From Bacteroidia bacterium (GTDB lineage: Bacteria > Bacteroidota > Bacteroidia > J057), in assembly GCA_030430575.1 (NCBI GenBank), contig JAUIKF010000015.1:62001-126000 (forward strand): 64,000 nt of DNA, given 5' to 3'. Below are positions 30,367 through 44,707 of this stretch, piece after piece (position 1 is the first letter of the stretch; each line of letters starts with the position of its first letter). The notes below the pieces were generated by a model. It saw only the letters and a program-made list of their open reading frames with translations. It searched no databases and was not told the origin of the DNA. The translations under genes were made by a program, and so were the position numbers.

Positions 30367-31986
30367 TCAATTTTTCATCAACATAAAAAACCGATCCTGC
30401 CCGTCCATCGTCACGCGCAGCCAATACGGCCCCTGGGCCAGATGATAAGGAAGCTCAAAACTCCGTTCATAGGTGCCTTCTGGCTGGAATTCCTGGCGGA
30501 AAAAAGTCGCAGCCCTGCGCCCTTGCATGTCAAGCAATGACATGCTAACTGTCTGACTACGAGCTAGTTCATATATGACTTTGAGGTCTGTGTCAAAAGG
30601 ATTGGGGTAGGTGAGGAAAGAAATCGTTGTTTGGGGCATATCGGTAATGGCTGAAGTGATCGGCGCGTCATTCACATAGCGGCATATAAAGAAATCATGA
30701 AAAAAAGCGGTATCCGTAACCACGCCTACCGTCACAATCTTGCCATCGGGTTGTAGCGCACCCGCATACCCTCTGACAAATTTGTTGGGCATATAAACAG
30801 TCGCAGATGCCAGAACGCCAAATTCTGCGTCAGGCTTCCCGTTGGGTAGCAGGCGCATCACCAGGGCATCTGCCAACCCCGCACCTAGTGGACGGTATTC
30901 TCCTATCAAGAGAATCCTGCCATCTTCTTGTAAGATCATATCATTTATCTCTTGGCGCGGATAAGGGTCGCCCCCAAGACCCATGGTTCCATAAGTGGAA
31001 TCAACCTGGCCGTCTGGCTCCAGCTTGAGGACAAAACCTTCAATATTGGAGAAAGATTGCCCGGCCGCATAGATGGAGCCGTCTGGCGCTATGGCTAGTT
31101 TTTTGATTTCCTCACGATTGGTAGAGAAGTCAAATGCTACGTGGCCTGAATCAGCGAAAGTAGAGTCCAGCAGGCCTGCAGCCGTTAGCCGTGCGATACG
31201 AAATTGGTAGTTGACACGTGCAGGACCCAGCTCCAGGCCCTCCCTCGCAGCCATGACGATCTTGCCATCTGGCTGAAGTGCCATGGTATTGACCTGGGTG
31301 CCGAACTTCGTGATCAGGAAAAAATCATCTTGATAAACGCCATTATACCCAAACCCAAAGTCCCGTTGTCCGTCGGGATGATACCGAGAGAGGTGAACGG
31401 TAGACTCTCTATCTCGGGACGCATCATAGGCCAAGACCAAGATCTTGCCATCGGGTTGTACCAACAGGTCTGTTTGGAGGACAGTGGAATTCTGAAAAGG
31501 TTGTAAAAGAAATCCATTCCAGTGGAAAGAAGAATCTAGGGTGCCATCTGGCCAAAGGCGAGCGATAAAAATGCCTTTGTTCACGGCTCCCCAGACGAGA
31601 TAATTGCCTGCGACAAGGATTTTGCCATCAGCTTGCAAAGCGATAGAGTTGGTTTTGATATTTGAATTGGCTAATCCTAAATCATGATACAGGGCCCCGT
31701 TATCTGCAAAGGTGCTGTCCAGTTGGCCATCAGGATTAAAACCCCAAAGTGCCAGTTTGCTTTCTGCATTGGCATTTTGAGTCATTTCAAAACTGGCTAT
31801 TATCTTGCCGTTGGTTTGCACGACTACATCAGTGCCGATGATATTGGTCGGTTGAGTAGAGATCAGCCCCACACCGCCGTTGGCAAAGGTAGTGTCCAGG
31901 ATGCCTACTAATTGCGCAGAAGCATAGCTAAAAAGTAGGCATACCCATCCCACAAGGATTACTCCTTTTTTCATTAATAATTTCAT
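30367..31986 (-). CDS. Secreted delta-60 repeat protein with T9SS sorting domain
   Basis: 539 residues with a signal peptide (GVILVGWVCLLFSYASAQ). About seven delta-60-type repeats alternate two blocks: LxxDGxxDxxFxxxG and (A/V)xQxDGKIxxxG (for example FNPDGQLDSTFADNG and ALQADGKILVAGNY), likely a beta-propeller. The C-terminus is a type-A sorting domain (LTYPNPFDTDLKVIYEL to RFFMLMKN). M1 or M5 may be the true start. Surface or secreted; function unknown. Confidence 0.87.
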   Translation of the reverse strand: MKLLMKKGVILVGWVCLLFSYASAQLVGILDTTFANGGVGLISTQPTNIIGTDVVVQTNGKIIASFEMTQNANAESKLALWGFNPDGQLDSTFADNGALYHDLGLANSNIKTNSIALQADGKILVAGNYLVWGAVNKGIFIARLWPDGTLDSSFHWNGFLLQPFQNSTVLQTDLLVQPDGKILVLAYDASRDRESTVHLSRYHPDGQRDFGFGYNGVYQDDFFLITKFGTQVNTMALQPDGKIVMAAREGLELGPARVNYQFRIARLTAAGLLDSTFADSGHVAFDFSTNREEIKKLAIAPDGSIYAAGQSFSNIEGFVLKLEPDGQVDSTYGTMGLGGDPYPRQEINDMILQEDGRILLIGEYRPLGAGLADALVMRLLPNGKPDAEFGVLASATVYMPNKFVRGYAGALQPDGKIVTVGVVTDTAFFHDFFICRYVNDAPITSAITDMPQTTISFLTYPNPFDTDLKVIYELARSQTVSMSLLDMQGRRAATFFRQEFQPEGTYERSFELPYHLAQGPYWLRVTMDGQDRFFMLMKN

Positions 31987-32047: not shown

Positions 32048-32082
32048 TTTTTTTTATTTTTTAGGAAAAAAAATAAAAAAAA
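32048..32082 (-). terminator. AT-rich terminator hairpin overlapping a stop codon
   Basis: TTTTTTTTATTTTTT (32048-32062) pairs with its complement (32068-32082). The TAA stop of the CHAT gene (32054-32056) and the codons for its last residues PKK lie in the stem. Confidence 0.6.
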
Positions 32083-34843
32083 GTAGAAAAAGGATGAGGC
32101 CACTGATGAGGATATAAGGCCAAAAGGGCCGTTTCTGAAGCTCATAATCTGCTCCCCAATGCGCGAAATTCGCCCAAAAATAGGGATGTGCCAGCGAAGG
32201 GGTGGCTTGCGCCAAAAAATCTCTTCTCGCCTGTCCAAAGGCTTTGCCAGAATAGGCTCCATCCTGTAGGTAGCGATAAAAAGCAGGGAAAATCCGGTCC
32301 GTCACCCGCGCATCTGCCTTCCAGCGACTGGACAGCACCGTGGCTGCGCCCGCATATCGAAATGCTCGGCTGAGACTCATCAGACCTTCGCCCGCTTCCA
32401 GCTTGCCATCTCCCACTTCACACGCGGCAAGGCTGATCAGGCTATTGAGGAGCTGCATATTGTAGAGTTCGTGACTATACAGGCGCGTATCTGCGCTGTC
32501 CGAAAGGGGGAATTGCAAATAGGCCAAAGACGGATTGGCGGTGTCGCTCTGCCCGTGAAGGGCCAGATGAAGCATGCCATATTGCTCGGCATAGGTATTG
32601 AAATGCGCTTTGGTCGCGTCAGAGAAGTCTTTTCCAGGTGCTTCCGTGAGCAAAGTGGCAGGGACGTTTTTATTCTGTGGAATGGTCAGATTTCCCGTGT
32701 ATGCCGGGGCAAAAACAGCTAATTCGGGTTCAGGGGCATGTTTAGCGGTAGGCAATTGCAATAAGGATAGCGCATGTGCATAGCGCACATCTATCTGCGT
32801 CGCGAGGTAAGGCAAGCCACGAAAAGTAGTGGCATCTGTTTTTTCGGATAAAAGGGCTTCAAAAGGAAGCGAAGCCAATTTCCCATCGGGAATGATGATG
32901 AGTTGGGCGGGGGAGATGCCTGCTAACGGCTTGGAAAGCCATTGTTGGTAGCCTTGGGCTGCCAATCGAATGAAGCGACTGACTGTCTCTTCTGCGTAGT
33001 CTACCGTTTGGAGAAGGGCCAATAAATCATTCAGTTGTTGACTGACAAGTGGCGTCAGCGCAATCTGATAGAACTCAATTTTCCCTTGAAAATACCTTAA
33101 GGAATACCCCTGATTTTTGCCCCAAAAATAGGCGATGCTTGCTGTCTGCCTCGGCAAGTCACGGAGTTGATGAAGCAGCTCCTTTTCATCGATTGCCTCG
33201 ACAGCCCCAAATGCGGGCCATTCTTCGGCCAACTGCTTGCGAAAAGCGACATAGGCTTCTCTCGCCGAAAAAAGTGCTTCGATAGCCGCTTGTACCTCTG
33301 TATCACTTCCTTGCTCTCGCTTCAGCAAAGCCTCTTTTTGCCCCAATATGCCAATTTCTATCCTGAAATTTTCATCCTTGATCTGCAAACTATCCGGCAA
33401 CTCCTGCCACTTCTGACTCCGCTGTCTTTCGGTATACAAAATACCCGTCTGGTAGCGCTCCATCCACAGCAATGCTTGTCGGAGATAGTCCTCATTTTGC
33501 GTTGCTTGATGCAAGGCATAGCAGGTCCCCAGGGCTGCTTCAAAAAGGTCCTGCATGGAGCGATTCAGCACGAGCTTATTCGCTTCTTCTATGCGCTCTT
33601 CCCGCAATTGGTGGAAAAGGCCATAGGCCAATTCACAAGCTTCAACTCCCTTTTTAAGCTTAGGGAGTTCTTTGTGTTGGGTAAATTCGTCTAGGTAGGC
33701 AAATGTCTTCGCTGACAAAATGGGGATTGCATCCGCCTGGAACAGAATCTCCTGCCGATCAGGCAGTTCCTTGCCTTTCCCTGCTTTGCTAGATAAGTGC
33801 CCAAAAGCGTAAGTAAAATGCTGATGCGCACTGTCAAACTCTGCCATTCGCGCGTATTGCTGCCCGATCTGGCGCTCGCCACGGGCGAGGTCTTGAAAGT
33901 ATTTGCTATCGATCTCCTTCCGTAGTATTTGAGCCTGTTGGTAAGCGTGTAATGCTTTTGCAGCTTCTCCTATTACGCTGAAAATATCTCCCCATAACTC
34001 CTGGACGCGTTGCGGTTTATACCTTCTCCCTTCTGAATTGGCTTGTTCCACCAACGTCAGGTAATGCTTCGCACTGTCGATTTTTCCCTCATCCACAAAA
34101 CTTTGTGCAATCCCTAGGCCTGCATTGATATGATATCTTTTGGAGGAGTGGTTCCAGATCTTTCGGTAGGCATCCCTACTTTCGACTATGTTTCCCAGTT
34201 GTGCCTGGGCCCATCCTAGCCCTGAAAAAGCCGTAGCGAAATTAGGCGTAATGCTGAGCGCTTTTTGATAATAAGAAATGGCCATCAGCCAGTCCGCTTC
34301 TGATTGATAAATGCCCCCGATAGCCGAATAAATAGCGGTAATGACATAGGTTGAAGGCTTTTTATCTGCTAAATTGATCGCCAATGACCTTTCTAAATAC
34401 CGTTTGGCTAGATCTTGCTGGCCAAGCCTTTTCAAAAAGGAACTTCTATTTTGTAGCGCATCTGCGTAGTAAAAGGAGTTCTGAGAAAGCAACAGAGGAA
34501 TACTGTCTACAGCTTCCTTGCTATAGACATTGGCCTGGTCAAACGGCACTTTACTCCTGAAAGCGGCACGCACCAGGCCATTATATGCCAAGGCATAACA
34601 TTTCCCTGCTTCTAACGCTTTGGCTTCTCCAATATATTCCTTGAAAAAGCCCATCGCAGAATCAGGATAATGCCTGATCAGCTTGACACTTGCTCGCGTT
34701 TTCTGGAGCAATGTGTCGATCGCCAGGTTGTCCTGCGCATACAGGCTTGAAAACATCAAGGGGATCAGCACGGCAAGCCATACCGATCCTTTGATCCAGG
34801 TTTTGTAGGTCCGACTTTCAAAGTCGGACCTACGGTTTTCCAT
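32054..34843 (-). CDS. Membrane-anchored TPR-CHAT caspase-like protease
   Basis: 929 residues from ATG 34843; the longer frame upstream encodes only repeat sequence. A leader helix (IKGSVWLAVLIPLMFSSLYAQ) is followed by TPR repeats (about 60-430, for example AISYYQKALSITPNFATAFSGLGWAQAQLG), a coiled-coil-like linker, and a C-terminal CHAT domain: LIIIPDGKLASLPFEALL, then MLHLALHGQ with the catalytic His (about 757) and SLAACEVGDG with the catalytic Cys (about 807), then GAATVLSSRW. A final membrane helix (WPYILISGLILFLLFFIFF) anchors it. A cleaved or anchoring leader plus C-terminal helix puts the protease on the periplasmic side if the C-terminus is cytoplasmic. CHAT proteases act after TPR sensing, e.g. 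in programmed death or gasdermin-type defence, but the partner here is unknown. A palindromic repeat encodes part of the leader (RRSDFESRTY). Confidence 0.88.
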   Translation of the reverse strand: MENRRSDFESRTYKTWIKGSVWLAVLIPLMFSSLYAQDNLAIDTLLQKTRASVKLIRHYPDSAMGFFKEYIGEAKALEAGKCYALAYNGLVRAAFRSKVPFDQANVYSKEAVDSIPLLLSQNSFYYADALQNRSSFLKRLGQQDLAKRYLERSLAINLADKKPSTYVITAIYSAIGGIYQSEADWLMAISYYQKALSITPNFATAFSGLGWAQAQLGNIVESRDAYRKIWNHSSKRYHINAGLGIAQSFVDEGKIDSAKHYLTLVEQANSEGRRYKPQRVQELWGDIFSVIGEAAKALHAYQQAQILRKEIDSKYFQDLARGERQIGQQYARMAEFDSAHQHFTYAFGHLSSKAGKGKELPDRQEILFQADAIPILSAKTFAYLDEFTQHKELPKLKKGVEACELAYGLFHQLREERIEEANKLVLNRSMQDLFEAALGTCYALHQATQNEDYLRQALLWMERYQTGILYTERQRSQKWQELPDSLQIKDENFRIEIGILGQKEALLKREQGSDTEVQAAIEALFSAREAYVAFRKQLAEEWPAFGAVEAIDEKELLHQLRDLPRQTASIAYFWGKNQGYSLRYFQGKIEFYQIALTPLVSQQLNDLLALLQTVDYAEETVSRFIRLAAQGYQQWLSKPLAGISPAQLIIIPDGKLASLPFEALLSEKTDATTFRGLPYLATQIDVRYAHALSLLQLPTAKHAPEPELAVFAPAYTGNLTIPQNKNVPATLLTEAPGKDFSDATKAHFNTYAEQYGMLHLALHGQSDTANPSLAYLQFPLSDSADTRLYSHELYNMQLLNSLISLAACEVGDGKLEAGEGLMSLSRAFRYAGAATVLSSRWKADARVTDRIFPAFYRYLQDGAYSGKAFGQARRDFLAQATPSLAHPYFWANFAHWGADYELQKRPFWPYILISGLILFLLFFIFFPKK
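34805..34833. repeat. Palindrome GTAGGTCCGACTT inside the CHAT leader
   Basis: The 13-bp arms 34805-34817 and 34821-34833 are perfect complements around TCA. It is in frame in the CHAT gene, just before the hydrophobic leader helix. GTAGGTCCGACTT-type palindromes look like dispersed REP elements. Confidence 0.75.
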
Positions 34844-34912
34844 GGTTTTTGTCAGAGAACCTGTTTTATGATTTGGCTCATCGAGGGTATTAGTGGAGGC
34901 AAGAAGAAAGAA

Positions 34913-34980
34913 CCACAGATTACCCAGATTCCCACAGATTTTCTGCTTTAATCCGTGCAAATCTGTGTAATCCATGGTGA
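34913..34980. repeat. CACAGATT repeat, direct plus inverted copy
   Basis: CCACAGATTACCCAGATTCCCACAGATT is followed by the complementary AATCCGTGCAAATCTGTGTAATCCATGG, so the pair can form a long hairpin. It is a member of the family at 4088, 24613, 37823 and 50860. Confidence 0.75.
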
Positions 34981-35075
34981 ATGTTAGGGGTAAAGTGATC
35001 ATTATACTAAATGTCTCGATGAACCAACTCTTTTTCACTTTTCCTAATTAAATATCGTGTCCTTACAACTAAGTT

Positions 35076-35203
35076 GTCATTTCGACCAACGGGAGAAATC
35101 CAACATGCCCTTCCGAATGGTTGTTTACAGGCTTCTAGACCACATTGTTAGATTTCTCCTCCCTTCGACGTGGCTCAGGGCAGGCTAGACTCGTCGAAAT
35201 GAC
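35076..35203. repeat. GTCATTTCGAC long hairpin repeat
   Basis: GTCATTTCGAC at the left pairs with GTCGAAATGAC at 35193-35203, and GGGAGAAATC/GATTTCTCC pair inside. A CCCTTCGACGTGGCTCAGGG variant of the CCTGAGC...GAAGGG family is embedded. It fills the gap between the 35241 gene end and the CHAT gene leader. Confidence 0.7.
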
Positions 35204-35240
35204 CTTTTAGAAAAGGTGTGAAAACTTTTTCCACACGATT

Positions 35241-36110
35241 TTAATCAACCTTTACCAATTTCTTGGTTTTGGGAGGGTGTAATCCATCTTCAATTCGCAG
35301 GAAATAGCATCCTGGTGAAAGCTGGGAGGTATCCCAAGATTGATTCATTTGCCCTTCTCCCATCATTTTATTTCCTAAAAAACGTCCATCTGAAGACCAT
35401 AAACTCAGGCGGATAGTGCCTGCCTCGTGTTGCTTGTGAAGGGAAAGACTTGAAGTAAAAGGATTGGGAGAGACAGTAAGGAATTCCATCTCGCGGGTGC
35501 TTTTATCCGCAAAACGTCCTCCTCCGCCTCCGTTGTTGATATTTCCGCCTACGCAAATATCAGAGGTGATGAGACCATTGGTATATATGACTTCTACCGG
35601 ACCATTCAGGACTTTGCCTTTTACGATATATTTAAATACAATCTGATCATCTGTGGGATAATTGGGGGGTAAACCTACAGACCAAGGTAAAGTAAAAGAA
35701 AGCAGGTAGCTTGCTGGGGGGTGGTAGGAATACGTATACGGTACAAGGGGGGTGCCTGAGCCGGTAAGGTCGAATTGGAGCGTATAGGGATTTCCAGTGC
35801 CTCCTGGATGATTAATGTTGAGTAAATTTCCTGCATTATCCTCTACTCTAAAGATAAAGCGAATTTCCTCATAAACGGTGTTACTCAAATAAATAAAAAA
35901 CTCGTCATTAAACTCAAGCGTTCCTGTGCTATCTGGCTTAAAGCAATCAGGAAAATAAATAGGCGGAGGGGTGTTCGTTGTTCCGCTTTGAGGATGCCCG
36001 TCATTGTCTTCGACGATGATAATCCGGTCTTCGTCATCTGCCCATACGGGCAAAAATGCAATCAATAAGCCCAATAGGGCGAGCAGGTTGAAATAAGTTT
36101 GTCTATTCAT
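35241..36110 (-). CDS. Secreted T9SS cargo protein, unknown
   Basis: 289 residues with a signal peptide (YFNLLALLGLLIAFLPVWA). The mature part starts with an acidic stretch (DDEDRIIIVEDNDG), then a beta-rich domain without recognised family, a Gly linker (NNGGGGGRFADK) and a type-A sorting domain (LTVSPNPFTSSLSL to KKLVKVD). It lies directly upstream of the CHAT gene on the same strand and divergent from the ECF sigma gene, so it may belong to that regulatory unit; the link is only positional. Confidence 0.8.
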   Translation of the reverse strand: MNRQTYFNLLALLGLLIAFLPVWADDEDRIIIVEDNDGHPQSGTTNTPPPIYFPDCFKPDSTGTLEFNDEFFIYLSNTVYEEIRFIFRVEDNAGNLLNINHPGGTGNPYTLQFDLTGSGTPLVPYTYSYHPPASYLLSFTLPWSVGLPPNYPTDDQIVFKYIVKGKVLNGPVEVIYTNGLITSDICVGGNINNGGGGGRFADKSTREMEFLTVSPNPFTSSLSLHKQHEAGTIRLSLWSSDGRFLGNKMMGEGQMNQSWDTSQLSPGCYFLRIEDGLHPPKTKKLVKVD

Positions 36111-36195
36111 GTGATAATGGTTTTTACAAAATTAAACAATAACTTTACACTACGTGCAAAGAATTGTGGACACCATTCACATGATTTGTACCGAT

Positions 36196-36220
36196 AAAGC
36201 CTCCATGCCGGGAGGCTTTT
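36196..36220 (+). terminator. Orphan rho-independent terminator
   Basis: AAAGCCTCC (36196-36204) pairs with GGAGGCTTT (36211-36219) around ATGCCG, followed by TTCTT. It lies between two divergent genes, so no protein gene should need it; it may end a short RNA starting near 36140. Confidence 0.7.
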
Positions 36221-36313
36221 CTTAATTAGTCAATCAATAATCTATCAATTAATAATTCCTCTACCCTTAACACGGTTCCCTTTGAGTGGACATCACCAGT
36301 AACTCCCAAAAAA

Positions 36314-36895
36314 TTGAAAAAAAAGATTTCAGAAGCGGAGATCATCGCCGGCATTCAAGCCACTGGGGCACAGCGGCAGCAGTACGCGGGATGGCTCTAT
36401 GAAAAATATTTCGACTTCATCTATGCAGGCGCCAAACGCTACAGCTTGTCCTTCGAACAAGCTCACGACGCCTACGGAGACGCTATCATCAAGGTCTGCC
36501 AACAAATCCAAAAAGGCGCCTATGAAGGCAAAGGGAAGCTATCTTCCTACCTTTTTCGCGCTTTTCTTAACCGATGTGTAGATATTATTCGCCGCAATGC
36601 GTCTTATATCCAACAGGAAGACATTGCTGCGCATTATGACTTGCCTGCTACGGCCAAGGGGATCTTGGAAGAAATGGAACATGCAGAGCAGTGGGAAGCA
36701 GTCAATGCCGCGATGGACGACCTGGGGGATAAGTGCAAACGCTTGCTGCTCGATACGGAGTATTATGGCTATAGCCTGGAGGAGGTCGCCCAACGAACGG
36801 GCTACAACAAAGCCGCTACCGTCGCCAATATGAAGTATCGCTGCCTCAAGCGACTCAAGGACTTATTAAAAACCAAGCAAACAGGCCAATCATGA
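36314..36895 (+). CDS. ECF-type RNA polymerase sigma factor
   Basis: 193 residues. Region 2 is visible as LYEKYFDFIYAGAKRYSL...AHDAYGDAIIKVCQQI and LSSYLFRAFLNRCVDIIRR; region 4 as LLLDTEYYGYSLEEVAQRTGY with the helix-turn-helix and KYRCLKRLKDLL. The start is TTG 36314 because there is no in-frame ATG nearby upstream. The stop overlaps the ATG of the next gene (ATGA), so the two are translationally coupled, as is usual for ECF sigma and anti-sigma pairs. Confidence 0.88.
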   Translation: MKKKISEAEIIAGIQATGAQRQQYAGWLYEKYFDFIYAGAKRYSLSFEQAHDAYGDAIIKVCQQIQKGAYEGKGKLSSYLFRAFLNRCVDIIRRNASYIQQEDIAAHYDLPATAKGILEEMEHAEQWEAVNAAMDDLGDKCKRLLLDTEYYGYSLEEVAQRTGYNKAATVANMKYRCLKRLKDLLKTKQTGQS

Positions 36896-37632
36896 AAGAC
36901 GAAAACCTCGATCAAATCACGTTATTTGATCAATATATCACCCATCAGATGAGCGAATCGGACAGATTAACATTTGAACAACGCTTGCAGGAAGACAAGA
37001 GCCTGAAGGCAGATTTTGCTGCTTTTTTGAAGAGCAAGGAATTGCTGTATAAGGCAGGGTATCAGGAGGAAAAGGCCCTTTTTGAAGCTAAGCGTGCAGG
37101 TTTGCAGCAGCGAAAAAAGCGTGTGCTCCAGCTCCGCACGCGCATGATGATTGCGGCAGCTATTACGATATTGGTCGCTTTGGCCTTTATTTTCATGCCC
37201 TCGTCAGGCCCTATAGATTCTCAGGAACTATTTGCTGCCTATTATGAGGCACCAGAAGTGCCAACGACCCTTTCTCCTGATCAAGATAGCCTACTGCGAG
37301 TCGCTGATTTGGCATTTGATGAAAAGGAATTCACGGTAGCTCATGAGGTTTATGCTACCCTTAATCTCTCTGATTTTTCGGCCGCCGAAAAATCACGAAT
37401 TGCGCTCTTCCAGGGCATCTGTGCCCTGGAGTTGAATGAATTCGGCGATGCTCGACGTTACTTCAACGATGCCGTTCAGCATGAGGAGGAAGCTCAGTGG
37501 TACAGCGCCCTGAGCTGGCTGAAGGAGCCTGATGGCCTGGAACAGGCGAAGGCGGCGCTTCAGGGGATTGTAGAGGCTGAAAGCCATTTTTATGGGGAGA
37601 AGGCGAAGGAGTTGTTGGGGGCGTTGGAGTAG
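36892..37632 (+). CDS. Putative anti-sigma factor with one membrane helix and periplasmic TPR-like domain
   Basis: 246 residues. The N-terminal cytoplasmic part (FDQYITHQMSESDRLTFEQRL, about residues 12-32) resembles the helical sigma-binding start of Bacteroidota anti-sigma proteins; it lacks a zinc HxxxCxxC motif. A single helix (MMIAAAITILVALAFIFM, about 84-101) follows, then a helical, TPR-like C-terminal domain (VADLAFDEKEFTVAHEVYATL, ALELNEFGDARRYFNDAV) probably outside the inner membrane. It likely holds the upstream sigma factor until a signal arrives; the signal is unknown. Confidence 0.78.
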   Translation: MKDENLDQITLFDQYITHQMSESDRLTFEQRLQEDKSLKADFAAFLKSKELLYKAGYQEEKALFEAKRAGLQQRKKRVLQLRTRMMIAAAITILVALAFIFMPSSGPIDSQELFAAYYEAPEVPTTLSPDQDSLLRVADLAFDEKEFTVAHEVYATLNLSDFSAAEKSRIALFQGICALELNEFGDARRYFNDAVQHEEEAQWYSALSWLKEPDGLEQAKAALQGIVEAESHFYGEKAKELLGALE

Positions 37633-37885: not shown

Positions 37886-39844
37886 CTACTTCTTCCTAAT
37901 AATCGCCGCATAGCCGCCGCCTTTGGCCAGCTTGGTTTCAATTTTATCCCCTTTTACCACTGACATCGTCTCTATCTTATAATCCTGGGCATTCCTCCCT
38001 GCATTGACACCATCTTTCATCGACTTCATTTCATAATTACCTTCCCCTAAAAAAGAAAGGTCTATTTCAAATTCACGGGCTACCCAATCGGTCATGCCGC
38101 CGATATACCAATTCTCTCCTCGCCGTCTAGCGACGACGATATACTCCGCCACCCTGCCGGCCAGCACCACGGTCTCATCCCACACGGTGGGGATTTCGGT
38201 AATGAAATCTACCGACTCTTGTTCCTTATAGTAGATCGTCGGCGACTCACACATCATCTGAAGCGGCGCTTCAAAGACGACGTACATCGCGACTTGATGG
38301 GCACGGGTGCCCATGCTCATGGGGCGCGACCAGCGCGGTGAATAATTGACCTTATTGGTATTGATCATGGAACCAGGGGTGAAATCCATAGGCCCGGCTG
38401 CCATTCTGATAAATGGGATCGTCACATTGTGTTTGGGGGTAATAATATCACTCCACTTGTTTTGCTCATTGCCCAAAACCCCTTCATAGTTCACCAGGTT
38501 GGGCCAAACACGCTCTATGCCCGCAGGCTTAAATGCACCATGATAGTCTACTAGAAGATGGTATTTGGCGGCTATTTCAGCAATTTTCTCATAGGATTCG
38601 ACGACATACTGATCACTGCGCTGCATGAAATCCACTTTCACCCCCGCAGCGCCCCAACTGCTGTAGAGTTTGAGAATGGTATCGGGCGTTTCGTAAAGCG
38701 GTTTCCAGAGGACCCATAAGATGATACCGACGTTTTTGCTGGTGGCATATTTGATCAATTCAGGGACATCCAGGTCTTCGTTATCATCCAAGATCTCAGT
38801 GGTAGATTTGGTCCACCCTTCGTCGAGAATGACGTATTCGATGCCGTTTTTGGAAGCAAAATCGATGTAGTATTGATAGGTCTCCATGTTGAGGCCCGCC
38901 TCGAAATCTACTCCGTAGATGTTGTTGGCATTGTACCAGTCCCAGGCGACTTTGCCGGGCCTGATCCAATCGGCATCGGGGATTTTTGAGGCTGGAGAAA
39001 GCTGGGTGACGAGGTTGCTTTCTACAAACGTGCGGTCGTCATCGCTGATGATAAACACTCGCCACGGATAGGCTCTCCCGCCATCTACCTGCGCGATATA
39101 ATCGGCTTTCTCTACCAGAAGTTGGTCCCGGTCTGGGCTTAATTGCACATTGGGAATGGCTTTTAAGACATATTTGGGGAAAGTAGCCGAAAAGCTATTT
39201 TCCTTATCCTTTTCGAGAAACATCCCTGGGTAGTTTTGAAGGGAGGCTTCGGTAAAAAGCACTTTTGCATAAGGCGTTTCAAACATCACAGGGAGGCTGC
39301 AAAAGTCCCCTTCTTTGATCTCAGCGATCTTTTTGTCCAAGTATTGGCGTTCGTTATGCGAATACATGGAGGTTTCTTGTGGGAAAAAAGAGCGGGAATC
39401 CTTTGGAAAAGTAAGGGCCATCTGCTCATGGGTTACGATGGTAGATTTGGCACTTTGATCCACAAACCGATAGCCTACGCCGTCGTCATACACCCTACAG
39501 ATCAGTTGATATTTTCCTTTAAAGGATAAGGTCAACTGGCTGTATTCACTTTCTATGTGTGCGTCTTTATTCGGTACCTGTACGGTGATAGTCTCGAATA
39601 AATCCTCTACCTCATCACGCTTCAATTGGGGAGATTTCCCCAAGACTCGCCCATTGCCCATGTCCATGGTGACTATCGCCTTTTCAATGACATTGACATG
39701 GTCTAGCCTGATTTCCATAGAGATGACCTCCGTTAGGTCAAACTCGACCTCGATTCTCCCATTGGGCGAACTGACAGAAAGTGGAAAGGCCATCCCTATA
39801 TTTGCGAGGCAAATAAGGAAGGAAAGGGTAAGGGTTAATTTCAT
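37886..39844 (-). CDS. Glycoside hydrolase family 97 (retaining-type features)
   Basis: 652 residues from ATG 39844, which starts a normal signal peptide (MKLTLTLSFLICLANIGMAF). The GH97 layout is present: N-terminal beta-sandwich (SVSSPNGRIEVEFDL), catalytic barrel with VAWDWYNANN, YVILDEGW, GIILWVLW, GVKVDFMQRSDQ, LLVDYHGAFKPAGIERVWPN and NYEGVLGNE, then a C-terminal sheet. The Asp in VKVDFM (about residue 404) and the Glu in YEGVLG (about 453) match the nucleophile and acid/base reported for the retaining alpha-galactosidase BtGH97b, so alpha-galactosidase-like activity is more likely than SusB-type alpha-glucosidase. Periplasmic. It sits 10 bp after the oxidoreductase gene. Confidence 0.9.
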   Translation of the reverse strand: MKLTLTLSFLICLANIGMAFPLSVSSPNGRIEVEFDLTEVISMEIRLDHVNVIEKAIVTMDMGNGRVLGKSPQLKRDEVEDLFETITVQVPNKDAHIESEYSQLTLSFKGKYQLICRVYDDGVGYRFVDQSAKSTIVTHEQMALTFPKDSRSFFPQETSMYSHNERQYLDKKIAEIKEGDFCSLPVMFETPYAKVLFTEASLQNYPGMFLEKDKENSFSATFPKYVLKAIPNVQLSPDRDQLLVEKADYIAQVDGGRAYPWRVFIISDDDRTFVESNLVTQLSPASKIPDADWIRPGKVAWDWYNANNIYGVDFEAGLNMETYQYYIDFASKNGIEYVILDEGWTKSTTEILDDNEDLDVPELIKYATSKNVGIILWVLWKPLYETPDTILKLYSSWGAAGVKVDFMQRSDQYVVESYEKIAEIAAKYHLLVDYHGAFKPAGIERVWPNLVNYEGVLGNEQNKWSDIITPKHNVTIPFIRMAAGPMDFTPGSMINTNKVNYSPRWSRPMSMGTRAHQVAMYVVFEAPLQMMCESPTIYYKEQESVDFITEIPTVWDETVVLAGRVAEYIVVARRRGENWYIGGMTDWVAREFEIDLSFLGEGNYEMKSMKDGVNAGRNAQDYKIETMSVVKGDKIETKLAKGGGYAAIIRKK

Positions 39845-39854
39845 TTTATAATTA

Positions 39855-41198
39855 TCAAAAATCCCTATAAGGTGCATCTAAGAAAGCATTGGCTTCTTCC
39901 TCATCAAACCTGGAAGCTTCACTGTTCCAATGAAGGGTCTTATTGGGGAAGCGCCCTGCGATCACACCTAGCAAAATAGTCTCTGTAAGCCTCGCTGCAT
40001 AGGAAAAGGGAGCGGTACATTGCCCCTCTCCCAGGCAAGCATTTACAAATTGATGGTAATGCTTTTTCCCTTCTGCTTCATAATCCCTGATCGGCGCGCC
40101 TATTTGACCTGAAGCTGTTACCTTGGCAATATCTTCGGTGAGGTCTTGGTATGCGCCATCAATGATCAACCTGGGAAGCTCCATGAAGTGAGGCAGGAGA
40201 AGCCTCCCTTTTTCCCCAACAAACATCGCCCCTTGGCTGGGAAGCTTCTGGTTATCAGGGAGTTTTAGGTCTTTGTGTTTCTTAGGCGCGCCTTCTCCGT
40301 CATACCAAACCCATTTGAACTTCTCTGTGGTGTATTGGGTTCCTGGAAATTCATAGGTGACGATATTGTGCTCTGGAAAGCCATAACCATTGGGTTTCCG
40401 GCACTTGTTTTTGATGGTTTTGGGAATGTCCAATTCGAGTGCATTATAGGGCGTATCAAAAATATGCACGCCCATATCGCCTAGTGTACCGCAGCCATAA
40501 TCCACCAGCTTTCGCCAATTGGCAGGATGATAAACGCCTTCTTTGTAGGGCCGCTCAGCAGAGGTGCCTAGCCACAGATTCCAATCCAAATGCTCGGGAA
40601 TAGGGTCTGCACCCGCAGGCGCTGGACCATCATATCCCCAGTTTTTGGGGGACCAGGCATGCACGGTTTTGACTTTTCCCACAATCCCCGATTGGATCAA
40701 CAACGTCGCCAATTTATAATCATAAAAAGAATGCACCTGAATGCCCATCTGGGTGACGAGGTTTTTGTCTTCGGCCAGTTTGCGCATCGCTCTTGCCTCA
40801 GTCACATGGTGGGTGAGCGGCTTCTGGCAATAAACGGCTTTGCCCATTTCCATGGCCATCATCGACGCTGGCGCATGGGTGTGGTCAGGCGCTGAGACCA
40901 CAACAGCATCTATCTGGCTCCCCAACTCCTTGAGCATCACGCGATAATCGGCAAATATCTTTGCGTTAGGATACAGCTTATGCGCCGCTGCCAAGGTATT
41001 GGCATCTACATCACATAAAGCGGTGATTTCTACCGCATCATGTGAAGCAAATGATTTGAGGTCTTCGGCCCCCATGCCGCCTACACCGATATGGGCTGTC
41101 CGAAGCTTGCCGTCTTTGGATAAAGCCCAAACGCCAGCAGGCAAGAGGCTCGCCGATGCGATGGCGGCGGTGTTTTTGACAAAATCTCTTCTTTTCAT
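39855..41198 (-). CDS. Gfo/Idh/MocA-family oxidoreductase with Tat-like signal
   Basis: 447 residues. The N-terminus MKRRDFVKNTAAIASASLLP is a twin-arginine type export signal. The Rossmann loop is HIGVGGMGAEDL (about 35-46) with ALCDVD as the ribose contact; VSAPDHTHAP and YCQKPLTHHV supply the conserved Lys of the family. A C-terminal substrate domain follows (NWRKLVDYGCGTLGDMGVHIFDTP). It should oxidise a sugar or sugar derivative with NAD(P). Its close linkage to GH97 suggests a shared galactoside or related substrate; this is inference. Confidence 0.9.
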   Translation of the reverse strand: MKRRDFVKNTAAIASASLLPAGVWALSKDGKLRTAHIGVGGMGAEDLKSFASHDAVEITALCDVDANTLAAAHKLYPNAKIFADYRVMLKELGSQIDAVVVSAPDHTHAPASMMAMEMGKAVYCQKPLTHHVTEARAMRKLAEDKNLVTQMGIQVHSFYDYKLATLLIQSGIVGKVKTVHAWSPKNWGYDGPAPAGADPIPEHLDWNLWLGTSAERPYKEGVYHPANWRKLVDYGCGTLGDMGVHIFDTPYNALELDIPKTIKNKCRKPNGYGFPEHNIVTYEFPGTQYTTEKFKWVWYDGEGAPKKHKDLKLPDNQKLPSQGAMFVGEKGRLLLPHFMELPRLIIDGAYQDLTEDIAKVTASGQIGAPIRDYEAEGKKHYHQFVNACLGEGQCTAPFSYAARLTETILLGVIAGRFPNKTLHWNSEASRFDEEEANAFLDAPYRDF

Positions 41199-41222: not shown

Positions 41223-42659
41223 TTAATATTTCTTTTCTGGTGCAAACAATTCATCTAAGACTAGGGAATGCTCTACCAGCCCTAAGCTATGCATATTATG
41301 CTTGATCCCAAAGGGCGTGATCATCGTCGTTGTCACTCGTTTTTTGGTTTTAGAAAGGCGCATGAAAGCCCATAGGCGTTGGCGTAGGCGCTCGGCGTAG
41401 TCCTTGGTCAAGGTAAATTCACTGTTGTAAAATTTGATCTCAAATAGATGGATAACGCGGTCAGCTCGCTCCATGATCATGTCGATCTGCAAGCCTTTTT
41501 CTTCTTCGGTGGCTTTTTTCAAAAAGGAAAAAGAGGTCGTATACACCCCGCCAACGCCCAGGGCTTGCTTGATCTGGGGCACATGCTTCATGCAAATGCC
41601 TTCAAAGGCGTAACCGCACCAGATTTTGAAGGCTTGAGTTTGGCTTAATTGCTGCCATGTTTTTGTCTCTCCAGAAGCATTAGGTTCAATAAATTGCAAG
41701 TAAAAAAGGGAATATTCATTTGTGAGACGGTATAATTTGCCCTTTTTCTTTTTGCCAAAAGGCTGGTAGGCCATGATGAAATCTGACTGGACCAGGTCTT
41801 CCAATATCCGCGTAACAGAACCTCCATTTGGGACTTTACCATTCGCAATAATCTCGGTTCTACTGAGTCCTTTGCTGTTTTGGGACAAGGTTCGAAGGAT
41901 CTCGAAGGGATAGGGTGAATCGTCAAACAGTTCTTCATACAAACGAGAAAACTCATTTTTTAACAACTCATTTTCCCCAAAACATATCCGATCTACATTT
42001 TGAATAACACTTTCCTCTGGAACTACTGCCTCCAAATATAGTGGAATCCCTCCCATGACCATATATAGTTGTGTGATATCGTAGCGAGGGAAATTGATAT
42101 GGCGAGATGTCAGGTAGGTTTCTGTTTCTGCTAAGGTAAAAGGTTTAAGATGGATGTACTTCGTCACCCGATTGTGTAAACCGCCTTTGTCATTGATGAC
42201 TTTTTTGATAATCCAGGAAGAAACGGACCCACAAAGGACAATGACAAGGTTTTGCTGTTCCGCCCAATCATTCCAAAAATGCCCAAGGAAATCCAAAAAA
42301 CCAGATGCTGGATCAGCCAGCCAGGATAGTTCATCAAAAAACAAAACAGCCTTCCGGTCTTTTTTCAGGAGGGGTTTCAAATGAAGGCGCAATTGAAAAA
42401 AAGCATCCAGCCAATCTTTGGGTTGCTCCACTTCTTTTCCAGAAAGCAGTTGCAGGGTATTTCTGAAAGTCCTCAGTTGCTGTTCAGGGCTTGCATGTCT
42501 GACCCCAGTCTGTTTGAAAACAATATGCTTTTCATAGACAGAATTGACCAAAAAGGTCTTACCTACCCGCCGCCTTCCTACGATAGCGATCATCTCTGCC
42601 TTTTTGGATTCGAGGGCTTTTAATAGGATATTTTGCTCTTCTTTTCTGCCTATGAACAT
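41223..42659 (-). CDS. ATPase_2/DUF234-type P-loop ATPase
   Basis: 478 residues from ATG 42659, where similarity starts (MFIGRKEEQNILLKAL). Walker A is GRRRVGKT (residues 28-35), Walker B VLFFDELSWL (about 104), and ILCGS-like VIVLCGSVSSW is the sensor segment. A winged helix (LSRTEIIANGKVPNGGSVTRILEDL) and the DUF234 C-terminal nuclease-like domain (MIMERADRVIHLFEIKFYNSEF, with D/E-xK pattern) follow. Such archaeal-type ATPases are common in Bacteroidota and their role is unsettled. The promoter coincides with a perfect palindrome. Confidence 0.87.
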   Translation of the reverse strand: MFIGRKEEQNILLKALESKKAEMIAIVGRRRVGKTFLVNSVYEKHIVFKQTGVRHASPEQQLRTFRNTLQLLSGKEVEQPKDWLDAFFQLRLHLKPLLKKDRKAVLFFDELSWLADPASGFLDFLGHFWNDWAEQQNLVIVLCGSVSSWIIKKVINDKGGLHNRVTKYIHLKPFTLAETETYLTSRHINFPRYDITQLYMVMGGIPLYLEAVVPEESVIQNVDRICFGENELLKNEFSRLYEELFDDSPYPFEILRTLSQNSKGLSRTEIIANGKVPNGGSVTRILEDLVQSDFIMAYQPFGKKKKGKLYRLTNEYSLFYLQFIEPNASGETKTWQQLSQTQAFKIWCGYAFEGICMKHVPQIKQALGVGGVYTTSFSFLKKATEEEKGLQIDMIMERADRVIHLFEIKFYNSEFTLTKDYAERLRQRLWAFMRLSKTKKRVTTTMITPFGIKHNMHSLGLVEHSLVLDELFAPEKKY

Positions 42660-42670
42660 GATTAATAGCG

Positions 42671-42710
42671 TTTTGCCAAAAGTAGTAAAATAATACAACT
42701 TTTGGCAAAA
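42671..42710 (-). promoter_or_regulatory. Palindromic promoter/operator of the DUF234 ATPase gene
   Basis: TTTTGCCAAAAGT (42671-42683) and ACTTTTGGCAAAA (42698-42710) are perfect complements with a 14-base spacer. On the minus strand TTG (42708-42706), a 21-base spacer and TACTTTTG (42684-42677) match the Bacteroidota promoter consensus closely, and both boxes lie within the palindrome arms. A repressor binding the palindrome would block the promoter, so autoregulation is plausible. Confidence 0.6.
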
Positions 42711-42817
42711 ACTTGATTTGAGCAATGTTTCCAATTTTTTGGAGTACTACAATAGTTGATTCGTGTTTTATTGTTAATTTCAAAACAGGAATAATACTAC
42801 CCCCTAATTAAGGCCAA

Positions 42818-44707
42818 ATGAAGCCAGAAAAGCCAGAGCAAAAACCAGACAACATCATCAGTGAAATCGTATTTGATCCTTCTTTGAGGAATATGAATAA
42901 CCTCAAGGTATCAGGGAACAACAGAAAAGATGGGCTTGAAATAATACCCTCTTTATCCAAAGTAAACATTTTTGTGGGGGAGAATAATTCAGGGAAAAGT
43001 CGTTTGATAAGAGGGTTGTTAGGGGATAAGGATTTTTCCTTTAATTTGAGGAGGGTAAATAATGTAAAAAAGAATTTTGAGAAATCTATTACTGAGTTCA
43101 AGAAAAAAATAAATGCGCAATCTCGTATTTTTCATGGATCGATAATGGGGCGGTATTATCAAAAAATATTGGATTATGGAATCCCTGAATTTTTAAATCA
43201 AAAGTATAATATACACGAAGAACTTATTAGTCCTTTACACAATATCCTGCATAGTGGAAATAATGATGTAGAATTAAGGGGTAATCGTGATTATATTAAT
43301 TTTTCAACAAGCATTGAGATTATTATTGAAGATTTTGAACCTTTAATTCCCAAAGAACCAATTCCAAATTTTGACAAAATCTATATCCCTATATTAAGAG
43401 GGTTAAGAGCAATTGGAAATAAAAAAACAGAATCGGAATTCCATTTTAATACAGAACAAGATAATTATAGAAGAAGGACTCAAAAAGATTATTTCCTCTT
43501 CAACGGGGATGATAAATTTATGGTCGATGAAGACTCTATTTTTACAGGACTTGGATTATTTAATGACTTAAAGGCGCACTTACTGGGGTCGCATGAAAAA
43601 AGAGAAAAAGCCAGAAAATTTGAAGATTTTTTGAAGCGTTCATTTTTCAATGGGGCAAAAGTAGAACTAGTCCCAATGGTCGAAGATGATGTTGTGCATA
43701 TCAAAATTGGCGAAGGAAATGAATTTCCCATTCATCAATTAGGGGACGGCATTCAATCCATTATTATCTTAACCTACCCCATTTTCTTTTCTGAGGCAGA
43801 GAATTTATTGGTTTTTATAGAAGAACCTGAATTGCACCTTCATCCTGGGATGCAAAGGATATTGCTAGAAACCTACCTTAATGAGCCTGAATTCCAAAAA
43901 TGTCAGTTTTTCCTCACAACTCATTCCAATCACTTTCTGGACATGACACTTGATTTCGAGGATATCTCCATTTACACAGTGAAAAAAAATGGCAAAACTG
44001 AAGAATGTTTAATTGAGAATGTAAAATCCCCTGATAACAATACGCTTGAGCTTCTTGGGGTGAGGAACTCATCAGTGTATTTAACAAACTGTACCATTTG
44101 GGTGGAAGGAATTACAGATAGAATTTATATCCGCAGATTCTTAGAACTGATTCAAGAGCAAGAAAAAGAAAAAACAAACTTCAAAGAAGATATTCATTAC
44201 TCCTTTGTCGAATATGGAGGGAACAATATTACGCATTGGTCATTTCTTGAAGAGGATGAGTCAAATCCAACAAATATTGATGTTGAAACTCTCTGTGGTA
44301 AGCTCTTTTTAATTAGTGATCGTGATAAGAATAAAGAGGAAAGGCATGAAAAATTAAAGAAGGCCTTAAAGAAACGCTTTTATTTACTTGAATGCCTTGA
44401 GATTGAAAATATTTTGCCAAAAGAGACTCTTATTATGACTGTAGAGGGAATTTGTAAGAAGAAAGGGCCGAACTTTTCAGTGAATAAATTTGAGTATGCA
44501 GATTATAAGAACATGAAATTAGGCGAGTTCATAGATCAGAACTTTAAGGATCGAGGCAAAACCTTCAAAGGAAAATCAGGCTCAATTAATAGTGCCTATA
44601 AACTTGATTTTGCGAATGAGGCGGTTAAGCATTTAGGCAAACTATCTGGAGAATCGGAAAAGTTAGCAAAAGAATTACTGGCATTCATTAAAGAAAACAA
44701 TGTTTGA
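42818..44707 (+). CDS. OLD-like ATPase-TOPRIM protein
   Basis: 629 residues. An ABC-type ATPase half has Walker A GENNSGKS (54-61), the signature-like HQLGDGIQSIIIL, Walker B LLVFIEEPELHLHP (about 328-341) and the switch THSNHF (about 368). A TOPRIM half has VEGITDRIYIRRFLEL (catalytic Glu, about 428) and LISDRDKN (DxD, about 498). This matches class 1 OLD-family nucleases; a fused PARIS-type AriA-AriB protein is an alternative. No GajB-like helicase or reverse transcriptase is next to it. The gene is clearly AT-richer than its neighbours, suggesting transfer. A defence role is likely but not shown. Confidence 0.85.
   Translation: MKPEKPEQKPDNIISEIVFDPSLRNMNNLKVSGNNRKDGLEIIPSLSKVNIFVGENNSGKSRLIRGLLGDKDFSFNLRRVNNVKKNFEKSITEFKKKINAQSRIFHGSIMGRYYQKILDYGIPEFLNQKYNIHEELISPLHNILHSGNNDVELRGNRDYINFSTSIEIIIEDFEPLIPKEPIPNFDKIYIPILRGLRAIGNKKTESEFHFNTEQDNYRRRTQKDYFLFNGDDKFMVDEDSIFTGLGLFNDLKAHLLGSHEKREKARKFEDFLKRSFFNGAKVELVPMVEDDVVHIKIGEGNEFPIHQLGDGIQSIIILTYPIFFSEAENLLVFIEEPELHLHPGMQRILLETYLNEPEFQKCQFFLTTHSNHFLDMTLDFEDISIYTVKKNGKTEECLIENVKSPDNNTLELLGVRNSSVYLTNCTIWVEGITDRIYIRRFLELIQEQEKEKTNFKEDIHYSFVEYGGNNITHWSFLEEDESNPTNIDVETLCGKLFLISDRDKNKEERHEKLKKALKKRFYLLECLEIENILPKETLIMTVEGICKKKGPNFSVNKFEYADYKNMKLGEFIDQNFKDRGKTFKGKSGSINSAYKLDFANEAVKHLGKLSGESEKLAKELLAFIKENNV

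Follow-up and report, generated by a model that had tools for sequence, protein, structure and literature searches.

A stretch of 64,000 nucleotides from a Bacteroidia bacterium (GenBank assembly GCA_030430575.1, contig JAUIKF010000015.1, positions 62,001 to 126,000 of the forward strand; here called the window) carries a set of genes in which a predicted protease with tetratricopeptide repeats (TPRs) and a CHAT domain lies beside an extracytoplasmic function (ECF) sigma factor and a putative membrane anti-sigma factor. The original prediction, made from the DNA letters and their open reading frames (ORFs), described four genes, all of which are present. On the minus strand lie the TPR-CHAT gene (32054..34843) and a gene for a secreted protein of 289 amino acids with a type IX secretion system (T9SS) type A sorting tail (35241..36110), which fills a variable slot between the sigma factor and CHAT. 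An intergenic region between the divergent arms (36111..36313) separates them from the genes for the sigma factor (36314..36895, 193 amino acids, TTG start) and the anti-sigma factor (36892..37632, 246 amino acids), which overlap by 4 bp on the plus strand. We find that the combination of CHAT protein, sigma factor and anti-sigma factor recurs in the Bacteroidota, and suggest that the protease may release the sigma factor from its inhibitor.

The TPR-CHAT protein has 929 residues when counted from an ATG at 34843. The exact start is uncertain because the upstream DNA is repeat-like and a 15-pair inverted repeat (34803-34835) lies inside the first codons. The listed ORF, of 994 residues, begins at a GTG within the repeat-like intergenic DNA, and we prefer the ATG; a hydrophobic leader ending SLYAQ is present whichever start applies. 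Some words of the repeat-like segments upstream of the gene (34880-35240) were found again at other loci of the same genome, while the exact 14-base arm of the inverted repeat had no other copy in the window or the examined stretches of this genome. The leader (about residues 13-36) is followed by TPRs (about residues 40-350; Pfam TPR_2, E 1.1e-9), a protease region, a C-terminal membrane helix (residues 908-925 in the structure model; 32069..32122) and a short basic tail. The CHAT domain spans residues 634-897 (32153..32944) and is matched by Pfam PF12770 at E 9.2e-38 (130.7 bits against a gathering score of 24). As had been noted from the sequence alone, the His and Cys motifs are intact: H763 (32555-32557) and C808 (32420-32422), which align with H615 and C658 of the protease Csx29, are invariant in all 29 aligned CHAT proteins of this genome. 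Both residues occur in 148 of 149 aligned CHAT rows, the exception being an ORF cut by the end of its locus, and a peptidase function is predicted from this conserved dyad.

The sigma factor matches TIGR02937 at E 1.2e-18 (67.3 bits, cut-off 42.9). Its neighbor consists of a cytoplasmic N-terminal domain (about residues 1-80), a membrane helix (residues 85-103) and a predicted periplasmic TPR part (about residues 110-246). Taken by itself, the window anti-sigma falls below the curated cut-offs (NF052375, 24.4 bits against 100; NF047528, 21.9 against 200) and has a weak TPR match (E 0.008); the assignment was firmed up by 23 proteins like it in the source genome and by a structure model with a mean predicted local distance difference test (pLDDT) of 90.5 and a predicted template modelling score (pTM) of 0.60, which shows the N-terminal helices and the membrane helix. 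The model had no match in the PDB at E 0.001, and its best matches were TPR proteins. In each of the 21 anti-sigmas scanned, a single hydrophobic helix precedes the TPR part, mostly near residues 80-110. The gene overlap, together with the tree correlation described below, suggests that the anti-sigma binds and inhibits the adjacent sigma. Variants of this domain occur elsewhere. Proteins of 503-516 residues near CHAT genes (L139 6543-8054, L144 14789-16300, L155 6733-8283) carry three serial anti-sigma-domain matches, the last with the membrane helix and TPRs, and at L248 (925-3072) a sigma gene precedes one for a 528-residue protein that is alike in its anti-sigma domain and membrane helix but not in its outer part.

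To place these proteins relative to the membrane we used hydropathy thresholds and a composition script rather than a trained predictor. Among 148 distinct CHAT proteins of at least 800 residues, 140 have an N-terminal hydrophobic stretch and 131 a C-terminal helix; the tail behind that helix is net positive in 127 of the 131 and negative in one. The leader was seen by eye in all 29 aligned CHAT proteins of the source genome except one ORF that starts at a contig end. The anti-sigmas have their Lys/Arg excess on the N side of the helix in 85 of 92 cases and on the C side in one, the pattern of an N-in protein. From the charge pattern of both proteins, the CHAT protease and the TPR part of the anti-sigma are predicted to face each other in the periplasm. 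The export-type leader, the C-terminal helix with its basic tail, a CHAT domain outside rather than in the cytoplasm and the external TPR part of the anti-sigma, all proposed earlier, are thus borne out by composition. The exported form had also been called unusual for CHAT proteins, which does not hold among the relatives: a C-terminal hydrophobic helix is the rule, found in 74 of 79 named loci (among the matches listed). PEP-CTERM-like sorting signals are a type of C-terminal helix that we considered for comparison; by eye, the alignment has no constant motif before the helix, and we take it as a plain anchor. CHAT genes arranged in tandem, seven in one array and four in another (L261 and L262 of G381 C619; L266), have leaders but no C-terminal helix by our threshold.

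In the source genome, of 8.16 Mb in 127 contigs, CHAT is matched 39 times, and about 30 of these matches are long ORFs of like build. We examined the stretches around all 39, together with six anti-sigma genes that have no CHAT inside those stretches. In a frequent plan, anti-sigma and sigma genes share one strand, and the opposite strand carries one or more secreted genes, often T9SS-tailed, and then CHAT. Other gene orders also occur; the closest paralogue (L060, contig C59) has the same four kinds of gene in the same order as the window. The profile hidden Markov models were iterated from the window proteins, and their E-values are valid for these sets only. A TPR-anti-sigma lies within 10 kb of 19 of the 30 strong CHAT matches, against about 1.9 expected under random placement. 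Of the sigma genes that have a TPR-anti-sigma, 17 of 23 are within 10 kb of CHAT, whereas this is the case for only 3 of 33 without one, and one of those three is at a contig end where the anti-sigma may be missing. This control used 56 of 68 sigma matches (the 12 weakest, E >1e-6, were dropped), 30 of 39 CHAT matches and 26 of 33 anti-sigmas of this genome.

The association extends beyond one genome. In a genome of five contigs (G010), 8 of 11 CHAT genes are near a TPR-anti-sigma, and across 13 genomes of the family the counts of the CHAT and anti-sigma families per genome are correlated (Spearman 0.957; 103 of 129 anti-sigma matches, weaker or partial ones being dropped, and 132 of 140 CHAT matches). 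The pair is found within 10 kb of 59 of these 132 CHAT matches, several of the genomes being badly fragmented. Among 23 other genomes of the class, CHAT is present in 8 of 10 with the anti-sigma and 1 of 13 without (p 0.0007). A search of the phylum, with at most 27 candidates scored in each genome, found the TPR-anti-sigma in at least 12 of 99 genomes, including the source genome, and outside the latter 15 of 23 anti-sigmas have CHAT within 10 kb. CHAT itself, searched for in 80 of the 98 other genomes, occurs in 40, mostly of other classes where such strong anti-sigmas are almost absent from the phylum search. A CHAT pattern scan of public genomes gave 79 named loci (the best among the matches listed) in Saprospiraceae, Bacteroidales (Labilibaculum, Marinifilum, Prolixibacter), Cyclobacteriaceae, Flavobacteriaceae and others; sigma and anti-sigma genes lie together within 10 kb of CHAT in 41 of them, and in 24 of the 35 with at least 5 kb on each side. 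The counts, the genome correlation and the negative control rule out a chance neighborhood. With 92 sets in the Bacteroidota, the recurrent tie to the sigma pair that had been proposed is real; conservation of the neighborhood is frequent without being universal. The link had been called known in this phylum, and here the recurrence stands, while in the literature searched we found no paper that describes the set, although its parts are of known kinds. According to the cited part of one survey, class I anti-sigma domains lie beside only 6% of ECF factors in Bacteroidota (PMC7406223).

The arrangement of the genes bears on what the protease is for. It could be an output of the sigma factor, a periplasmic protease made with secreted partners that processes exported proteins or kills the cell. 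The source genome would favor this, since in 12 of its 18 sets, the window's included, CHAT is on the arm divergent from sigma, often behind secreted genes. The wider sample gives a different picture. Orientation in the 92 sets is convergent in 40, divergent in 39 and on the same strand in 13, the 37 sets from the family having been chosen because both genes are present, so that their orientation counts are descriptive. Convergence predominates in the named sets among the matches listed (22 of 37), whose median gap is 125 bp, and a CHAT gene convergent with the pair cannot be read from a promoter between them. In at least four further loci (L143, L147, L155, L173) the CHAT gene, on the opposite strand, separates the sigma gene from the anti-sigma gene, and in one case, described below, an anti-sigma is fused to CHAT. 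We therefore consider CHAT as a mere output rather unlikely. Adjacency kept in every orientation is more than a shared divergent promoter would require. Within the window's own intergenic region, a strong terminator-like hairpin (36196-36219, fold z-score -3.85) lies between the two divergent genes.

Consistent with a functional link between the products, the three proteins appear to be inherited together. Tree-distance correlations over 90 sets (two of the 92, with a CHAT ORF below 600 residues, were left out) were 0.638 for sigma and anti-sigma, 0.537 for sigma and CHAT and 0.55 for anti-sigma and CHAT, each above 2000 within-genome shuffles. Occurrence in all orientations together with correlated trees suggests that selection keeps the products together, and not merely one promoter.

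Further support for a link comes from a natural fusion. A Saprospiraceae metagenome-assembled genome (MAG) encodes, at locus L186 (JANQRV010000157.1), a single ORF of 1008 residues with an anti-sigma domain (profile E 2.9e-10 on residues 5-100), a helix (78-96), TPRs and a CHAT domain (E 4.2e-62), starting 2 bp behind a sigma gene. We found neither a leader nor a C-terminal helix in this ORF, which matches the Csx29 model NF041237 at E 3.5e-6 (26.2 bits against 300). The fusion links both functions physically, and the protease is predicted to lie across the membrane from the anti-sigma domain. CHAT is matched 42 times in the same genome, which also has several sets without a fusion; its operons of sigma, anti-sigma and CHAT (L270, L271) are an arrangement from which the fusion could have arisen. 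Locus L264 is a whole-genome copy of the same ORF and not independent. An anti-sigma-domain match at the N-terminus of a CHAT ORF was found at L186 alone among the loci scanned, and once, again in this ORF, among 20 further stretches of its genome.

The secreted T9SS protein had been noted as a member of the neighborhood, but it is not a fixed one. The window protein has a clear sorting tail (Por_Secre_tail E 2.6e-7, 31.3 bits against 27; TIGR04183 28.7 bits against 23), and a T9SS tail lies within 3 kb of CHAT in 10 of 18 sets of the source genome as against 10 of 37 named sets (among the matches listed). When 22 genomes of the order were searched, the core of the window protein turned up in two, which both belong to the window genome's own genus. 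Apart from the window it was seen at two places, each in the sister genome G009 and each within such a set. The protein in the same slot at L060, of similar length, is tied to it solely through an iterated profile that includes the tail. The source genome has at least 150 T9SS tails, so that one near CHAT is weak evidence; ORFs with such tails number 20 within 3.5 kb of CHAT (0.101/kb) and 17 at 3.5-10 kb (0.064/kb) in the examined stretches. Given this variable presence and slight excess, we do not count the T9SS protein as a core part of the set. Ten neighbors in the secreted slot were scanned and include PKD, subtilase and DUF7619 domains, with CBM6 below threshold. As a guess, the slot might hold a signal that the cell makes for itself, or a cargo monitored for whether it is exported.

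The presence of the set in many copies and its recurrence across the phylum suggest that the protease may act on the periplasmic part of the anti-sigma and free the sigma on an envelope cue, a reading that we regard as having about an even chance of being correct. The parts fit such a protease-released sigma, with sensor and protease outside, an inhibitor spanning the membrane and the sigma inside. The N-terminal domain of the anti-sigma would tether the sigma to the inner membrane, the TPR part of the anti-sigma would extend into the periplasm, and the exported TPR-CHAT protein, anchored in the same membrane, would hold its caspase- or separase-like protease there as well. An envelope cue might be sensed through the TPRs, perhaps as the variable secreted partner of the set or its failed export. 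CHAT would then cut or otherwise inactivate the periplasmic part of the anti-sigma, much as DegS acts on RseA and Csx29 on Csx30, further proteolysis would free the sigma, and the sigma may transcribe its own divergent arm; we infer the substrate, the cue, the autoregulation and the T9SS role. Close to what was originally proposed is that CHAT serves as a co-sensor without cleaving, TPR-to-TPR contact altering the grip of the anti-sigma on sigma while the protease cuts another target. Both partners do have TPRs, on the same membrane side by topology, but the dyad kept in 148 of 149 rows means that catalysis matters for something, and we think a non-cleaving role unlikely.

The predicted fold of the protease half resembles that of known proteases. 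The model of the window CHAT protein (mean pLDDT 88.3, pTM 0.86) has Csx29 of the type III-E clustered regularly interspaced short palindromic repeats (CRISPR) system as its best match (8eey_B, E 4.5e-16, Z 31.4, 576 residues, root-mean-square deviation (rmsd) 10.7). Residues 350-899 superpose on Csx29 (8eex_B) with Z 27.6 over 413 residues at rmsd 3.5, and separases are next best (5fby_A, Z 25.8, 320 residues, 3.7 A). The catalytic residues of Csx29 are H615 and C658, and Csx29 cleaves the sigma inhibitor Csx30, according to the cited passages of the Craspase paper (PMC10028731).

Several observations weigh against release of the sigma by this protease. Protease-free TPR proteins score up to Z 24.8 against the CHAT model, so the Csx29 score is partly due to TPRs and the matches to the protease half are the telling ones. 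In sequence, the window protein and Csx29 are not significantly similar (E 0.96; this weak alignment pairs H763 with H615 and C808 with C658), and it had no match to the Csx29 model NF041237 at E 0.1. The margin of the correlation between anti-sigma and CHAT trees is narrow (0.55 against a null maximum of 0.536). Within the source genome alone the same pair gave r 0.25 (p 0.04), falling to 0.17 (p 0.16) minus one paralogue, and sigma and CHAT gave r 0.11 (p 0.25); this test says little because its positive control, sigma and anti-sigma, was weak too (r 0.26, p 0.05), and it was replaced by the test on 90 sets. Over half of the CHAT matches from the family search lack a pair within 10 kb, although many are cut by contig ends. 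Of 20 loci taken where the genome lacks a strong anti-sigma match (18 CHAT ORFs recovered), six have a weaker anti-sigma within about 3 kb of CHAT, and four of these pair with a sigma gene. A shared promoter motif in the divergent arms was not evident, the mean best match being 10.9 against 10.4 in controls (44 regions), a comparison in which palindromes, the hairpin at 36196-36219 among them, score against themselves. The fusion was seen once, in one MAG, and the sigma gene before it is below cut-off for TIGR02937 (30.9 bits against 42.9) and for Pfam regions 2 and 4. Narrow searches turned up no second fusion. When the whole fused protein was searched at E 1e-60 against 22 genomes of the order (at most 37 candidates per genome), none of the matches started before residue 298. 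Its first 127 residues, searched in 295 genomes of the class, matched once, at a sigma gene next to a 528-residue protein with no CHAT seen (L248); at E 1e-7 this query missed the anti-sigmas of the source genome and so could find near relatives only.

The surroundings of the set were also considered. The next gene on the CHAT strand (30367..31986, minus) encodes a delta-60/DUF5122 repeat protein with a T9SS tail. Adjoining the anti-sigma gene are a glycoside hydrolase 97 and a Gfo/Idh/MocA oxidoreductase (37886-41198), apparently unrelated, followed by a divergent pair of ATPases (41223-44707), perhaps a defense pair: an ATPase_2 protein of 503 residues that matches the PADLOC candidate PDC-S27 (E 3e-185) and an AAA_21 protein of 629 residues that matches the AriA, GajA and PtuA models. 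A conflict or defense system, in which parallel copies watch the envelope for attack by phage or competitors and trigger a response or death in the manner of the cytoplasmic type III-E TPR-CHAT protease, would find some encouragement in these ATPases, at least 3.6 kb beyond the anti-sigma gene, in the fold relative within type III-E CRISPR, in the tandem arrays and in the 39 and 42 CHAT matches of single genomes. Against it, at E 0.01 the four proteins have no match to any PADLOC model, and the agreement between the CHAT and sigma-pair trees is more in line with a long shared inheritance than with frequent exchange. We regard a defense function as very unlikely.

Separases are eukaryotic intracellular cohesin proteases; their protease part superposes with the window CHAT model, but they are not known to be linked to a sigma factor. 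The transmembrane anti-sigma DdvA (8rw5, 8rot) also matches the CHAT model, at ranks 6 and 8 (template modelling score 0.23), presumably through its helical repeats, and we know of no protease in the DdvA system. DegS is a PDZ trypsin-like serine protease, whereas the window protease is a caspase-like cysteine protease with TPRs, genetically linked to each sigma. The DegS/RseA/RpoE system of E. coli is nevertheless alike in that a membrane anti-sigma is cut by an envelope protease, as we propose here (PMC10028731). HetF of Anabaena shares a CHAT domain, one predicted membrane segment and TPRs, and loses its function when the active site is changed, but its CHAT region is N-terminal (residues 1-555) and it acts in cell division and heterocyst formation; the cited part of the HetF text mentions neither a signal peptide nor a sigma pair (PMC8406250). 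EACC2-caspase systems likewise have a caspase domain, an ECF sigma and a TPR protein nearby, but with other partner domains, and 'CHAT' and 'anti-sigma' are absent as whole words from the cited part of that source (PMC8195603).

The closest likeness is to the type III-E CRISPR system (CASP/Craspase), where the TPR-CHAT protease Csx29, the sigma inhibitor Csx30 and CASP-sigma are encoded in one locus, and whose authors, in the part cited, describe the mechanism as convergent with that of DegS and RseA (PMC10028731). In contrast, the window protease is predicted to be exported and membrane-anchored, its anti-sigma lies in the membrane and carries TPRs, and the set occurs in multiple copies and over many lineages of the phylum, with no Cas family among 11 window proteins (Pfam). 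We tentatively suggest, while thinking it improbable on balance, that periplasmic TPR-CHAT proteins are the private first-cut proteases of tens of sigma/anti-sigma channels per cell in Bacteroidota, and that the type III-E set is not convergent but a cytoplasmic offshoot of these channels, which would be the older system and independent of CRISPR. If true, the CRISPR version of protease, anti-sigma and sigma would gain a plausible source, a large family of exported caspase-like proteases would gain a function, and Bacteroidota an anti-sigma family. Overall, the set appears to hold the same three roles as the CRISPR system, but in the periplasm, in up to tens of copies and, once, in one protein.

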